From an uncultured Bacteroidales bacterium (GTDB lineage Bacteria; Bacteroidota; Bacteroidia; Bacteroidales; Bacteroidaceae), in the NCBI GenBank assembly GCA_902774335.1, contig CACYHW010000003.1:1-64000 (forward strand): a DNA stretch of 64,000 nt. The letters run 5' to 3'. This document shows, in pieces, positions 4,285-52,599 of this stretch; positions within the stretch are counted from its first letter, which is position 1, and every line of letters starts with the position of its first letter. The notes below the pieces were generated by a model that worked only from the letters and a program-made list of their open reading frames with translations, was not told the DNA's origin and made no database searches. The position numbers and the translations under genes are program-made.

Positions 4285-4668
4285 TTACTTCTTAGCTGCT
4301 TTAGGACGTTTTGCACCGTACTTGGAACGTCTCTGGAGACGACCGTTAACGCCGGCGGTATCAAGTGTACCGCGGATGATGTGGTAACGTACACCGGGAA
4401 GATCCTTTACACGACCTCCGCGAACGAGAACGATTGAGTGCTCCTGCAGGTTGTGACCCTCACCCGGAATGTAGGAGTTAACCTCCTTCTGGTTGGTCAG
4501 ACGAACACGGGCAACCTTTCTCATGGCTGAGTTAGGCTTCTTAGGTGTTGTTGTGTAAACTCTCACGCAAACGCCTCTCCTCTGGGGGCAGGAATCCAGG
4601 GCCGGAGACTTACTCTTGTCCTCCAGGACCTGACGTCCTTTGCGTACTAACTGCTGAATTGTTGGCAT
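4285..4668 (-). CDS. rpsL: 30S ribosomal protein S12
   Basis: Decoding-centre protein, first gene of the str operon. The 127-residue protein contains the conserved [19 protein letters not shown] and [16 protein letters not shown] loops. The lysines at the positions where streptomycin-resistance substitutions usually arise (PKKP and RVKDLP) are wild type, so the sequence predicts a streptomycin-sensitive S12. A promoter match lies 57-87 bp upstream. Confidence 0.97.
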
Positions 4669-48176: not shown

Positions 48177-48254
48177 GGGACAAGAATGTCCCGTTTTTGT
48201 CCCGTTTTTGTCCCATTTCAAATTTTGCATGTGGGACAACTGCTTCTATATTCG
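48177..48254 (+). promoter_or_regulatory. Operator/promoter region with three GTCCC boxes in 11-bp phase
   Basis: GTCCC occurs at 48188, 48199 and 48210, exactly 11 bp apart and separated by T-rich spacers; two inverted GGGAC copies flank them (48177-48181, 48233-48237). A -7-like TATATTCG begins at 48247, with 32 bp between it and the last box. The same arrangement occurs at 51654-51721. This looks like a binding site for a regulator contacting one face of the helix, upstream of the 48.4-51.6 kb operon. Confidence 0.75.
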
Positions 48255-48367
48255 CCTTATAATGATCTAGTAAACAATAGACATATAAGATAAATAAAAA
48301 ACAAGTACATTTGTTCCAGTAGGAATAACATTGCGTATAAAAAGTTTGATCTTAAAAGGAAAAGGCT

Positions 48368-48685
48368 ATGAGTATTATTCATTCTTCAACAATAAAGATG
48401 GCATTATTATTGGCACTGCTGTCTTTTAATGTCTGTGCACTTGGGCAGGATCAGCCCAATACTGAATATTGTTTAAAATATGGCCCATCAAAAGTAAAAT
48501 ATTTTGTAAAAGCAAAGAACAGGCTATTCGTAGAAAAAGATTCGACAATTTCACAAGATTACATTACATCGTTGTTGAACAGATTAACTGATTCAAATAT
48601 TGAGATTAGTTGGATTTCCCAAACAAGTCCAAGAAATAACCTTTGCAGAGTAGTTTATGAAGATTCATTAATTGAGGCAGCGTAA
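48368..48685 (+). CDS. Small secreted protein of unknown function
   Basis: A 105-residue protein with a signal peptide (hydrophobic MALLLALLSFNVCALG, cleavage near GQ) and a mature part of about 75 residues with no cysteine pairs or motif I know. The segment STISQDYITSLLNRLTDSNIEISWIS is helical and amphipathic. It is first in the island operon, 22 bp before the TPR-HTH regulator, and has AT-rich codon use like the other island genes. A signal or ligand for the regulator's periplasmic TPR domain is one speculative role. Confidence 0.65.
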   Translation: MSIIHSSTIKMALLLALLSFNVCALGQDQPNTEYCLKYGPSKVKYFVKAKNRLFVEKDSTISQDYITSLLNRLTDSNIEISWISQTSPRNNLCRVVYEDSLIEAA

Positions 48686-48707
48686 AGACTGAAAAGAAAC
48701 TGTTCAA

Positions 48708-50312
48708 ATGAAGAGAATAATCTCCATAGTAATATCTTTGACGCTTGTATCAGCATGCGGAGATAATGCTGTATACAACAGTTTGCAGGATATAGAGCAA
48801 CTGCTGGAGACTGATGTTGTGGCTGCAGATTCCATGCTCAGCACCATTCCATTGTCCGGCAGCAGGAAAGACAGAGCTTTATATGCAATACTCAAGACAC
48901 AGGCTGATTACAAGAATAATGTCATAGCTCAGGATGACAGTCTGATTCTTACGGCTACTGAGTATTATGGAACAAAAAAAAGAGATTATCATGCTGCCAT
49001 GGCCTGGTACTCACTTGGCTGTGTATACTCGGATATGGGCAATGACCCTGAAGCGATCAATGCATATCTAAAGGCTAAGTCTCTGTTTCCTGACACTCTG
49101 GTACGTTATTATGCGCTTACAGAACAGAATCTGGGACAGCACTATCTGAACCAGATGATGTTTGACGAATCCTTGGATAACCTCATATGGTGTCTCAAGA
49201 ACTCTCTGCGGTTACATGAGAGTGTACTTACCACAAATGCAAGATATCTTATAGCCCTGAACTCTCTCTACCAGGCCGATTATACTACTGCGGACTCTCT
49301 ATTCAATATCATTATTAAGGACCCGCTCGCATCAAGTCTACGCAGCCGCCAATGCTACATGAATCTGGCCAAGATTCAGTTGCATGGATATAAGGATTAT
49401 GACAAGGCTATGTATTACATTGACCGATATCTCTGGGAACTCAAGGATCCGGCCGAATCCGGTATAGGCTACAGCGTAAAGGCTGACATATTCTATGAGA
49501 CAAATCAGTATGATTCGGCCTACACTTACTATATAAAATCCATGGAGTGTCCTAGCGAGTTGTATACAGTATGTGACAATAGCGGCAAGCTGGCAGTACT
49601 GTCAGTGATTATGGGTAATCAGGACGAGGCTCGTGAATACCTGGAATTGCATGATGAACTCATCGATTCCATATATGACCTGCGCAAAGACATTGCCACC
49701 CAGGAGGTTATCCGTAACCACAACATCATGTTGATGGATAATGAAGCCGATTACAGGAACAGACGTCTCATTATTATAAATATATCCATCCTGACTATCC
49801 TCATTTTGTCATACTTGCTATATATGTCACATAGAAGGATACGAATGGCCCGGAGACAGATCAGGCAACGTGATATAGCCCGCAACAACAGCATAGAAAT
49901 AATGAAAGCGCACATGCTTGACTCCGGGTTCAATGACCAGAGGTTGCCAAGAGACAAGATTCTGGATATGTATAAAGAGGAACTTGAGGAGTGTAAGAAT
50001 CTGTTCCGGGAGACTGATGCCTACACGTTACTGTCATCAAAGTTACTCAATAACGACCTTACGTTCAGCATAGAAGAAAGGAACTCTGTAATAGACCAGA
50101 TATCGGAGTCTTTCATAGACATCATATTGGATATGAACATTGAGATAGAGAACCTGGGGCGTGAAGACATTGTCATCTGCATTCTTTCCGGCATGAAATT
50201 CAGTAATAAATTCATTTCTGCATTCATAAATATATCTGAAAGCGGTGTGAGGAAACGCAAGTTGAGACTGGCAGAGAAAACCGGAAAAGACTTTATAGAA
50301 TTGTTTGTTTAG
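48708..50312 (+). CDS. TPR-transmembrane-HTH one-component regulator
   Basis: A 534-residue protein with a lipoprotein-like signal (LVSAC, Cys17), a periplasmic domain of degenerate TPR repeats (about 60-330; AMAWYSLGCVYSDMGNDPEAINAYLKA is clear), one transmembrane helix (about 352-374, IIINISILTILILSYLLYM) and a basic cytosolic part. The end (LGREDIVICILSGMKFSNKFISAFINISESGVRKRKLRLAEKTG) fits a LuxR-like helix-turn-helix: GMKFSNKFISAFINISESGVRKRK is the HTH. Such proteins in Bacteroides and Prevotella sense outside conditions and act on nearby genes. It is the likely regulator of both island transcription units. Confidence 0.78.
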   Translation: MKRIISIVISLTLVSACGDNAVYNSLQDIEQLLETDVVAADSMLSTIPLSGSRKDRALYAILKTQADYKNNVIAQDDSLILTATEYYGTKKRDYHAAMAWYSLGCVYSDMGNDPEAINAYLKAKSLFPDTLVRYYALTEQNLGQHYLNQMMFDESLDNLIWCLKNSLRLHESVLTTNARYLIALNSLYQADYTTADSLFNIIIKDPLASSLRSRQCYMNLAKIQLHGYKDYDKAMYYIDRYLWELKDPAESGIGYSVKADIFYETNQYDSAYTYYIKSMECPSELYTVCDNSGKLAVLSVIMGNQDEAREYLELHDELIDSIYDLRKDIATQEVIRNHNIMLMDNEADYRNRRLIIINISILTILILSYLLYMSHRRIRMARRQIRQRDIARNNSIEIMKAHMLDSGFNDQRLPRDKILDMYKEELEECKNLFRETDAYTLLSSKLLNNDLTFSIEERNSVIDQISESFIDIILDMNIEIENLGREDIVICILSGMKFSNKFISAFINISESGVRKRKLRLAEKTGKDFIELFV

Positions 50313-50332
50313 AATTAAAACCGTATTCGATT

Positions 50333-51631
50333 ATGAGAAACAAGACTGTGTTATTGATTTTGATGTTATCACTTACTCTGGCAGCCGGCGCAAAGAGATA
50401 TATACCCCTTGTAAAGAGTGTGCCCACCGGAGCCGGAGGTGGTGGCAGCGCCAAAGCCCCATTAAGGACGAGCGTCTACTCGCCTATGGCATTTTATGAA
50501 GATAATATACTCTATGTGCAGTTTCCCGCAAGCACAGTCTCAAGCGTCATCATAACCAATGATTCAACAGACCTTGCGGTTATAAATAAAAACTTTGAGA
50601 TAGAATCAACAGGTATTCAGATTGATATCGCTTCCCTTCTGCTTTATAATTCATATAACTTATATGTCAATGCATTCGGAAACTGGTGGGTAGGTTATTT
50701 TGATTATGAACTTTCAAGTGATGAACAATCCATCCAGAAAGCATTTTTCAGTTTAAGTGAAGACGCAGACAAAGAACGCAATTATGGCGTTTACAGCGTT
50801 GCCGGAAATGCTTCATCAGGATGGAATTTTGGTGTGAGCGGAATCCTGTCCGGCCAACAGGGAGGAACCGGAATCTATGGCTCGTCCAGTTATGATGAAG
50901 GATTCAACACAGGAGGCAAGTATGCCGGTCTATTCCATGGAGACCTTAAGGCCACTGACGCCGTATATGCATCAGTTTATAATACGTTGGCCGATTCCAG
51001 GCTGAATCAGGAAATGGAGCTTGTGGATGAAAGCAGTCTGGATAATATGATGCAGATTAACGTATACCGATACAACCTGAAACAGTTTAATGTTGACGGA
51101 GGAGATGAATCTGACCCTCAGAGTTACTACAATGATGACTCCGGTATTCTGCAAAATGATCATTTTGGTCTGACCGGACAGGAGATAAAGGAAATCTATC
51201 CCAATCTGGTAACAGAGAATCAGGAAGGATACTACTCTATAAACTATGTTGAGATGATTCCTCTCCTTATCCAGTCCATTCAGGAACTCAAAAAAGAACT
51301 GGAAGAGACCAACAAGGAGATGGAGGCCTTGAAGACGACCACAAGAGTGTCAGGCAGAACAACGCCAGACAAAGCCGTTTTGTTGCAGAACACGCCCAAT
51401 CCTTTCCGTGAAAGGAGCATTATCAAATGTGTTATTCCTCAAAGCGTTGCCGATGCATCATTATACCTGTATGATTATAATGGACATCAAATACAATCCA
51501 GATCTATCAGTGACAGAGGAGACGTTCAGATAATTGTAGAAAGCAATGGACTGATTCCCGGCATCTACCTGTATTCATTGGTTACTGATGGAGAGATTAT
51601 TGACACAAAAAGAATGATTCTTGCGGAGTAA
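50333..51631 (+). CDS. T9SS-exported surface protein with DUF3244-like, S74-like and T9SS sorting domains
   Basis: A 432-residue protein with a signal peptide (1-20), a DUF3244-like beta domain (about 45-126), a collar-like Gly-rich stretch (YGVYSVAGNASSGWNFGVSG), an intramolecular-chaperone (peptidase S74) like domain (about 210-320; HFGLTGQEIKEIYPNLV, YYSINYVEMIPLLIQSIQEL), a coiled coil (KKELEETNKEMEALK) and a type A T9SS sorting domain (about 352-432; LLQNTPNPF, GIYLYSLVTDG, KRMILAE). The S74 motif SDxRLK reads ADSRLN (Ala220, Asn225), so self-cleavage is probably lost. Translation follows the regulator by 20 bp. Confidence 0.85.
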   Translation: MRNKTVLLILMLSLTLAAGAKRYIPLVKSVPTGAGGGGSAKAPLRTSVYSPMAFYEDNILYVQFPASTVSSVIITNDSTDLAVINKNFEIESTGIQIDIASLLLYNSYNLYVNAFGNWWVGYFDYELSSDEQSIQKAFFSLSEDADKERNYGVYSVAGNASSGWNFGVSGILSGQQGGTGIYGSSSYDEGFNTGGKYAGLFHGDLKATDAVYASVYNTLADSRLNQEMELVDESSLDNMMQINVYRYNLKQFNVDGGDESDPQSYYNDDSGILQNDHFGLTGQEIKEIYPNLVTENQEGYYSINYVEMIPLLIQSIQELKKELEETNKEMEALKTTTRVSGRTTPDKAVLLQNTPNPFRERSIIKCVIPQSVADASLYLYDYNGHQIQSRSISDRGDVQIIVESNGLIPGIYLYSLVTDGEIIDTKRMILAE

Positions 51632-51653
51632 GATGGTTTAGCGGGAAGCTTAT

Positions 51654-51721
51654 GTCCCGAAATTGTCCCGTTTTTGTCCCGTATCTTTTGCTGTCATTGT
51701 TGTTTTAGCCATATATATTTG
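51654..51721 (+). promoter_or_regulatory. Second operator/promoter with three GTCCC boxes in 11-bp phase
   Basis: GTCCC at 51654, 51665 and 51676 (11-bp steps), then 33 bp to a perfect -7 TATATTTG at 51714-51721, with a TTTG (51687-51690) 23 bp before it. This repeats the geometry at 48188-48254 almost exactly (32 versus 33 bp), making a shared regulator likely. Confidence 0.75.
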
Positions 51722-51786: not shown

Positions 51787-52599
51787 ATGAAAAAGACTGC
51801 AACCTTAGCATTAGTGCTTATGACTGTAAGCTTGACAGCTTATGGAATTGAACCGCGTGACACAACGCAGGTTGAAGATTTTACTTTGACAAAACAAAGT
51901 ATTACCCTGAATATTGGCGAAAGCTTCCAACTGTATGTAAGTCCGGCCAATGCAGATGTAAGATGGTTTTCATCTCAGAGTTTTATGGATAATCCTGTAG
52001 CACTGGTTGATGAGAACGGTCTGGTTACCGCAGTAAGAGCCGGACAGGCCTATGCCGCTGCTGAATCAAAAGACGGAAGTATAAGACGACAGTGCCAGAT
52101 AACCGTAACGCAGAACGGAAGCATTAAGACCGGCAACAAGAAGTTTTCTCCTGTAAATGAAAGTGTATGGCAGGACGTAGACTTTACCCTTACAAATGAC
52201 GGTAAGTTCACTGCACAGGGCACCTTCGTGGGTAGCGGAGCAAGAGAGAACTGTCTTAATTATGTTGTTACTGACCAATGTATCTACCTTTCATTTGAGA
52301 TAGACTACGAGGACTCCACCAAGTTGTTCTACTCCCAGCCGTTCAGCATTGAGATTGAAGGCTGCAATGCATCACAGTATAACATATACTTCAATAACAG
52401 TGCCCAGGTCGTGGAGTCTCAAAAGGGTTTTGTAAGGTATTCAATAGCCAGAGGCTCATCAGTTAACACTACCGGAACCAAGAGGATTGAGGCTAAAGAG
52501 AAAGATGGACTGATCTATAATCTGAAAGGACAGATTCTGGATTCAAAGTCACAAAAGGGATTCTACATCCATAACGGAAGGAAATATCTGGTTAGGTAG
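51787..52599 (+). CDS. Secreted protein with BIg2-like domain and short T9SS-like C-terminal motif
   Basis: A 270-residue protein with a signal peptide (1-20), a bacterial Ig-like group 2 domain (about 33-108: LTLNIGESFQLYVSPANADVRWFSS, LVDENGLVTAVRAGQAYAAAES), a beta-rich middle domain of unknown type (about 115-240), and a C-terminus IYNLKGQILDSKSQKGFYIH followed by NGRKYLVR. The latter matches the short sorting-like C-terminal motif seen in Prevotella and Bacteroides exported proteins (YNLxGQ...KGxYIxNGKK). It has its own GTCCC-box promoter and a terminator. Confidence 0.72.
   Translation: MKKTATLALVLMTVSLTAYGIEPRDTTQVEDFTLTKQSITLNIGESFQLYVSPANADVRWFSSQSFMDNPVALVDENGLVTAVRAGQAYAAAESKDGSIRRQCQITVTQNGSIKTGNKKFSPVNESVWQDVDFTLTNDGKFTAQGTFVGSGARENCLNYVVTDQCIYLSFEIDYEDSTKLFYSQPFSIEIEGCNASQYNIYFNNSAQVVESQKGFVRYSIARGSSVNTTGTKRIEAKEKDGLIYNLKGQILDSKSQKGFYIHNGRKYLVR

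Follow-up and report, generated by a model that had tools for sequence, protein, structure and literature searches.

The window analysed here is a stretch of 64,000 nucleotides (contig CACYHW010000003.1, assembly GCA_902774335.1) from an uncultured Bacteroidales bacterium, in which a predicted regulator that joins tetratricopeptide repeats (TPR) to a helix-turn-helix (HTH), called TPR-HTH below, is encoded between two predicted promoters that carry the same array of three short boxes. The regulator gene (48708..50312, + strand) codes for a protein with a lipobox (Cys17), TPR repeats (Pfam TPR_1, E 6.4e-9), a hydrophobic segment at about 352-375 and a putative C-terminal HTH (..SESGVRKRKLRL..). 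The first gene past the first promoter site (48368..48685, + strand) codes for a predicted exported protein of 105 aa with no Pfam family at cut-off. Behind the regulator lies another predicted exported protein (50333..51631, + strand) with a DUF3244-like start (18.3 bits, under the cut-off of 25), a Peptidase_S74 chaperone domain and a type A sorting tail of the type IX secretion system (T9SS), and then the likely target gene (51787..52599, + strand), whose predicted exported product has a Big_2 domain.

At both sites three direct boxes, ATGTCCC, TTGTCCC and TTGTCCC, follow one another on the + strand in 11-bp steps, at 48186-48192, 48197-48203 and 48208-48214 in the first and within 51652..51680 in the second. 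The original prediction had described them as GTCCC at 48188/48199/48210 and 51654/51665/51676 in exact 11-bp steps, with gaps of 32 and 33 bp from the last box to the -7 element, and re-reading and re-measuring the sequence returned the same values. The conserved box is however longer than GTCCC, being the 7-mer TTGTCCC, of which the distal window copy is ATGTCCC. T-rich spacers had been stated, but the first spacer of the second site is GAAA and so is not T-rich. The predicted -7 elements, both on the + strand, are TATATTCG (48247-48254, 5 of 6 bases of TAnnTTTG, 32 bp past the proximal box) and TATATTTG (51714-51721, 6 of 6 bases, 33 bp past it), and the promoter spans from the boxes through the -7 elements are 48186-48254 and 51652-51721. 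An inverted half-site that the original prediction did not mention is present on the - strand 2 bp 5′ of the distal box, reading on the + strand GGGACAA at 48177..48183 and a degenerate GGGAAGC at 51643..51649. The first promoter also holds an extra inverted GGGACAA (48233..48239, - strand) between its -33 and -7 regions, which was seen by eye at none of the other sites in a set of 28.

A search of the window with GTCCC-N6-GTCCC gave four matches, whereas 100 shuffles averaged 0.13 and never exceeded 2, and all four are parts of the two triplets, in line with the statement that the window has no others. Two exact triplets are all that the assembly (2.35 Mb, 87% complete) contains, with none for the reversed-pattern control, and their placement is not random. 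Allowing up to 2 mismatches added two more triplet matches in the assembly, both unlike the sites by eye. A chance origin of the triplets is rejected on the strength of the shuffles, the reversed control and the letter-order control given below. No wider regulon stood out in this genome: away from the two sites, a doublet search that tolerated up to 2 mismatches gave 12 matches, and its reversed control 14.

Six orthologues of the window protein (68-74% identity) were found in the 37 genomes of the genus. The triplet (at most 1 mismatch) lies upstream of the TPR-HTH gene in all 7 loci, namely the window and the six orthologues, and the spacers diverge across these loci while the boxes stay constant. 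Absence of the triplet from orthologous loci had been set beforehand as the refuting outcome; it is kept in 6 of 6 close orthologue loci. A second triplet is present near the downstream gene in 5 of the 7, and in the remaining 2 the gene stops 1.4 and 2.5 kb short of the contig end. The exact GTCCC triplet has 11 matches in 6 of the 37 genus genomes (reversed control 0), of which 7 represent the TPR-HTH locus in 5 genomes and the other 4 overlap as one array in G019, with no TPR-HTH relative in its 3 kb. Across the family, own genus included, it was found in 17 of 399 genomes against 9 of 399 for the reversed control, so the bare triplet means little outside the genus. Relatives of the TPR-HTH protein were identified in 32 of the 37 genus genomes and in 23 of 60 genomes of other genera.

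The box and its spacing were then counted in 49 TPR-HTH loci (520 kb) gathered via the protein, where a doublet means at least 13 of 14 matches to a TTGTCCC pair. There are 36 doublets at a step of 11, 11 at 22 and 1 at 16, while every other step between 8 and 23 has zero. For the 140 letter orderings of the box, TTGTCCC included, the mean is 0.51 doublets, and the next highest ordering reaches 5. In the 12 three-box sites, which include two near copies, the inverted half-site is recovered at offset -9 with a mean of 5.42 of 7 (next best offset 3.58) as GGGA.., 2 bp 5′ of the distal box; in the 16 two-box sites no inverted half-site is conserved (best offset 2.38 of 7). A TAnnTTTG-like -7 element starts 32-34 bp past the proximal box in 24 of 26 sites, alike for two-box and three-box sites; 18 of these elements have all six bases, and the chance of at least five is 0.006 per position. 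It may be noted that the 26 sites leave out L231, G017 and identical sites and retain the near copies L089/L095 and L096/L238. The Bacteroides promoter is described, in the excerpt of PMC7366714, as TAnnTTTG at -7 and TTTG at -33. The fixed distance to the -7 element therefore places the end of the boxes directly 5′ of the -33 region. Genus-wide, a single box plus -7 element gave 17 matches, 16 of them at known sites, against 15 in the reversed control, and this count is uninformative.

The boxes go with one type of HTH. A second paralogue group with the recognition-helix string AIRKRK, having about 33% identity to the window protein, shows two boxes at the same -7 distance. For the 49 proteins, all 400 aa or longer, the locus holds a doublet in 15 of the 17 cases with RKRK versus 1 of the 32 others (p=1.3e-9), or 13 of 17 versus 0 of 32 for adjacent doublets only, and the lone non-RKRK locus with a doublet also carries an RKRK gene. 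When the 37 genus genomes were searched with the DNA pattern, the doublet was present in 14 of 14 genomes with RKRK versus 1 of 23 without (p=2.5e-9). RKRK was read in 30 of 43 HTH matches, with 13 unread in RKRK form, and the only unread match outside the 14 genomes, not seen otherwise, is on G011:C1 (E 7e-6). The exception, G017, has no TPR-HTH match, also has a reversed-control match and shows no gene start past the site, and its doublet is taken as chance. In total 27 exact doublets were found in the genus genomes (reversed control 2), and 23 of them have an RKRK-type TPR-HTH gene, or what is left of one, no more than 6 kb away; counted here are a gene that reads IHKRK and is broken by an in-frame stop, and a truncated gene that lacks its HTH. 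The doublet of G031:C64 shares its contig with the start of an RKRK-type gene, and those of G015:C84 and G034:C8 lie away from any RKRK gene. In the 14 box loci, no other open reading frame family among the ten largest reaches beyond 7 loci, and those that reach 7 are confined to the window clade; the TPR-HTH protein itself is in all 14 because the loci were gathered via it. The box-bearing proteins form two separate clades of the sensor-domain tree, whose well-supported branches (quick search, no bootstrap) force two box-state changes; the HTH tree would be compatible with one origin of the box state. From the conserved boxes and their co-occurrence with RKRK, the boxes are very probably binding sites of the TPR-HTH protein. 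Conservation of the box, the spacing and the -7 distance, together with co-occurrence with the HTH type, is established by comparison of sequences. A number of related sensors seem to have acquired a box variant of their own.

The genes past the sites are the regulator itself plus predicted exported proteins, among which are those with Big_2 (window, L066, L067), DUF3244 (L077) and BspA-type leucine-rich repeats (L230), several without a family, and in L088 a transglutaminase-like match under cut-off. The expectation that hits cluster next to TPR-HTH genes is borne out (23 of 27 within 6 kb), while T9SS/Big_2 targets are only one kind among several. L077 (G018:C72:29367-31004) has a TPR-HTH gene with an in-frame TAG and yet carries a TTGTCCC doublet with a DUF3244 gene after it.

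We consider it likely that the boxes are the binding sites of the neighbouring TPR-HTH protein, placed as those of an activator, and that they form a local self-regulating circuit with exported-protein genes. In this circuit the TPR sensor would detect a signal in the periplasm, and the subunits would bind, presumably cooperatively, along one DNA face to TTGTCCC boxes one helical turn apart. The bound regulator, just 5′ of the -33 region, would recruit RNA polymerase, and the regulator's own operon plus the neighbouring exported or surface-protein gene would be activated. We infer activation over repression from the position of the boxes alone. The original prediction of an activator or repressor site of a small dedicated regulon is supported, with an activator favoured over a repressor by the placement. 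It could have been drawn more widely, as T9SS/Big_2 genes are one kind of target among several and GTCCC is one of several box types in the regulator family.

Several points weigh against this reading. The loci are mostly protein-collected, so only the DNA-pattern searches are free of circularity, and the counts make no correction for relatedness among loci. For the -7 position the best score within range was taken, with ties going towards 33. Two of the 17 RKRK genes have no TTGTCCC doublet in the stretch fetched; one of them (L087) has a doublet 5.7 kb off on the same contig, and the other (L078) carries a different doublet, TTTTCCG. The C-terminus of the window regulator has no Pfam family match. 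Finally, strict TTG-doublets were found in 0 of 64 loci in five further TPR-HTH groups, which means that some regulators of the family have no tandem box close by.

Of the other explanations, the one that survives best is that the TPR-HTH protein does bind the boxes but keeps the promoters repressed as long as no signal releases it. Many repressors regulate themselves, and at the first window promoter a protein bound to the extra inverted box between -33 and -7 would block the polymerase; however, this box was seen at one site only, and boxes 5′ of -33 at a fixed 32-34 bp from the -7 element (24 of 26 sites) occupy the position of an activator, so we regard repression as unlikely. It is less likely still that the boxes belong to some other DNA-binding protein with its gene elsewhere, the TPR-HTH gene being just a linked target. 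The doublets of G015:C84 and G034:C8, which have a good -7 element, would suit such a binder, but boxes and RKRK HTH co-occur genome by genome (14 of 14 vs 1 of 23), and across paralogues the box sequence shifts with the HTH of the adjacent gene. That the arrays are functionless period-11 minisatellites, like the GTCCC repeats in public genomes, is hardly credible for the TPR-HTH loci and is rejected for them, as their spacers vary while the boxes hold and the -7 distance is fixed. In its favour, a scan for three TTGTCCC-N4 units gave at least 117 stretches, and among the matches listed the only one with a TPR-HTH relative is L153, which seems to be the contig of G007. The Bacteroidota stretches among the matches listed mostly have near-identical spacers, and the genus array on G019:C1 is of this kind with no TPR-HTH relative in its 3 kb. 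A neutral minisatellite does fit most other Bacteroidota triplets among the matches listed.

For the regulator itself we infer a periplasmic TPR sensor, one transmembrane segment and a cytoplasmic HTH. In its hydropathy profile the central hydrophobic windows start at 352-357 and a basic stretch comes next. The lipobox cysteine C17 is invariant in 31 of 31 aligned regulator proteins, and among 111 family genes the central hydrophobic segment is present in 109 and a simple lipobox pattern in 73. The HTH family was fixed by neither Pfam nor a PDB sequence search, in which, among the best 60 of 75 matches, only the TPR part was recognisably matched. In NCBIfam the C-terminus of the window regulator comes closest to TIGR02937 (sigma70-ECF, E 0.034, under cut-off), and the C-termini of relatives weakly match Sigma70_r4_2 (Sigma70 region 4) in 6 of 21 cases (best E 0.0025) and the winged-helix family HTH_24 in 4 of 21 (best E 0.00032). 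In the Pfam and NCBIfam scans no curated family turned up for TPR - transmembrane - HTH regulators of Bacteroidota, as we provisionally call them.

Parts of this arrangement resemble known systems. ComA is a soluble response regulator, ToxR and CadC share the topology of membrane-anchored one-component regulators, and RRNPP proteins are cytoplasmic, with an N-terminal HTH and a peptide-binding TPR. The tetrahelical HTH of ComA of Bacillus subtilis works, according to the excerpt of PMC4797271, with a site of inverted plus direct elements, and the three-box sites here also join one inverted and several direct elements; the ComA box is however TTGCGG with a 4-nt spacer in the inverted repeat, whereas here the spacer is 2 nt and there are up to three direct boxes, and the likeness concerns the site layout. 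ArcA of the OmpR/PhoB family binds two to five direct repeats, mostly 11 bp from centre to centre, and three-repeat sites exist, which is the repeat pattern and spacing seen here, but the ArcA sites are without a conserved location relative to the promoter, unlike the fixed one found in our loci; OmpR and PhoB are described as recruiting polymerase (excerpt of PMC3798270). The C-termini of the relatives here instead weakly match Sigma70 region 4, and no receiver domain or winged helix was listed up to E 0.1 for the window protein (Pfam, NCBIfam), which sets it apart from the OmpR/PhoB response regulators. As in regulators of the ToxR/VtrA kind (PMC9214523), a periplasmic sensor, one transmembrane segment and a cytoplasmic DNA-binding domain would be joined in a single protein, except that the order is reversed here (C-terminal HTH), the sensor is a TPR and there is an N-terminal lipobox. 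RRNPP proteins also combine TPR and HTH and have a small gene adjacent, but in the excerpt of PMC10075063 they are intracellular receptors of Gram-positive bacteria; the central hydrophobic segment and C-terminal HTH differ from this, and the N-terminal lipobox together with the central hydrophobic segment places the window protein outside that group.

Two further paralogue groups have tandem boxes of other sequence (TTGTATAC, TTGGGAC, TTTGGACA, TTGTAACA) in roughly the position of the TTGTCCC boxes. With self-repeats defined as a 7-mer matched at 6 of 7 or better, at a step of 10-12 and ending 31-35 bp 5′ of an exact TAnnTTTG, 23 of 67 promoter elements near TPR-HTH genes had one versus 8 of 211 far from them in the same loci (p=4e-10). 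TTGTCCC accounts for 13 of the 23, and excluding these leaves 10 of 54 (p=0.0007, a later cut of the same data). The others are TTGTATAC (L071, L073, L074), TTGTAGTC (L079), TTGTCCAC (L076), TTTTCCG (L078), TTGGGAC (L104, L108), TTTGGAC (L107) and TTGTAGC/TTGTAAC (L109). Of the 8 loci of the QKF group, 7 have tandem boxes past the gene (L101, L104, L107, L108, L109, L349, L350), counting L101 although no -7 element lies in range there and L350 although its -7 element has just five bases; in the exception, L375, the next gene seems to start at once. L100, L102, L103 and L351 have no QKF string, and no boxes showed there. Of ten next genes scanned with Pfam, 8 reach the DUF3244 cut-off. For 24 regulators, selected for having boxes and with the register set by the analyst, the box distance correlates with the HTH distance (r=0.62, or 0.58 as a partial correlation controlling for the sensor, permutation p=0.0002), while box against sensor distance given HTH gives a partial of -0.22 (p=0.97). 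It follows that box likeness tracks the DNA-binding domain and not the sensor.

Co-diversification of HTH and box in three groups of one genus is therefore well supported at sequence level. With moderate confidence we further propose that the paralogous TPR-HTH activators of the genus diversified together with their operators, each HTH type reading its own box, to give a series of insulated cassettes of sensor, operator and cargo in one genome. The pairs would be [RK]KR with TTGTCC(C/A), KQR with TTGTATAC or TTGTAGTC, SRT(M/L)K with TTGTAAC, SRKFK with TTTGGACA, and VRTLK/SRNLK with TTGGGAC. Somewhat more probably than otherwise, such a cassette would have two to four direct boxes, 11 or 12 bp apart and ending about 32-33 bp before TAnnTTTG, and each regulator would control a separate gene for an exported protein, in many cases DUF3244. 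The RKRK protein L078, with TTTTCCG, falls outside this proposed code. A family-wide box rule for all TPR-HTH proteins failed on 45 held-out genes (chosen among the remaining genus matches, mostly of the L068 and L069 groups), where 2 of 60 promoter elements close to the gene and 2 of 42 distant ones scored, which is no excess; one of the two hits is L349, which shares both HTH string and box with L107. In other genera the counts were 4 of 32 for close elements and 3 of 49 for distant ones (p=0.43), with suggestive single cases in L419 and L420. By group, strict TTG-doublets are present in 12 of 17 loci for RKRK, 4 of 8 for QKF, 1 of 5 for KQR/KKR, 1 of 12 for genus g30 and 1 of 6 for other genera. 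The expectation that TGTATAC-N5-TGTATACC lies only beside KQR genes was borne out in the genus by 3 of 4 matches, each of which had been in the discovery set, and the sole new match (G019:C1) has no convincing TPR-HTH match within the 9 kb covered. No paper giving a DNA site to such TPR-HTH proteins was found in the open-licence part of PubMed Central, from which subscription journals are mostly missing. The boxes supply a candidate site, promoter and target gene for several paralogues, which makes the function directly testable, and the HTH/box pairs, if they did co-diversify, would be a natural specificity series showing how duplicated regulators avoid cross-talk. L074, L075 and L079 have near-identical N-termini (MFI.N.KT.RR.LY.SVLAIAFLTSCRDTTC) and unlike C-terminal HTH strings, which is a sign of recombination between the sensor and DNA-binding parts.

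Across the order, the exact TTGTCCC doublet has 27 matches in 19 of 295 genomes, own included, with the reversed control in 5 of 295. Outside this genome there are 25 doublets; in their surroundings, taken as up to 1.5 kb of contig to either side, a TPR-HTH relative is present for 1. This single case (L256, G423:C4:87775-87792), from another family, has the doublet between a TPR-HTH relative with the HTH string ESIRKIRQRL and a divergent gene for a predicted exported protein, and by hand count the second box ends 33 bp before AATATTTG. In L136, L140, L145 and L171, from the Bacteroidales metagenome-assembled genome JAGCOF01, period-11 TTGTCCCATTG arrays are followed by GGACAACAA arrays; no TPR-HTH relatives are present in the stretches examined, and the arrays are a dispersed repeat family. 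Arrays like ATTTTACGTCGT.., with steps of about 21-22 bp, lie upstream of TPR-HTH genes of other groups in L070 (about 4340-4430), L082 and L083. In L070 and L072, TGTCACG recurs at a 21-bp step after a TPR-HTH gene of the IRQRR type, shortly before a promoter-like element, and this pair is possibly a two-turn version of the site.

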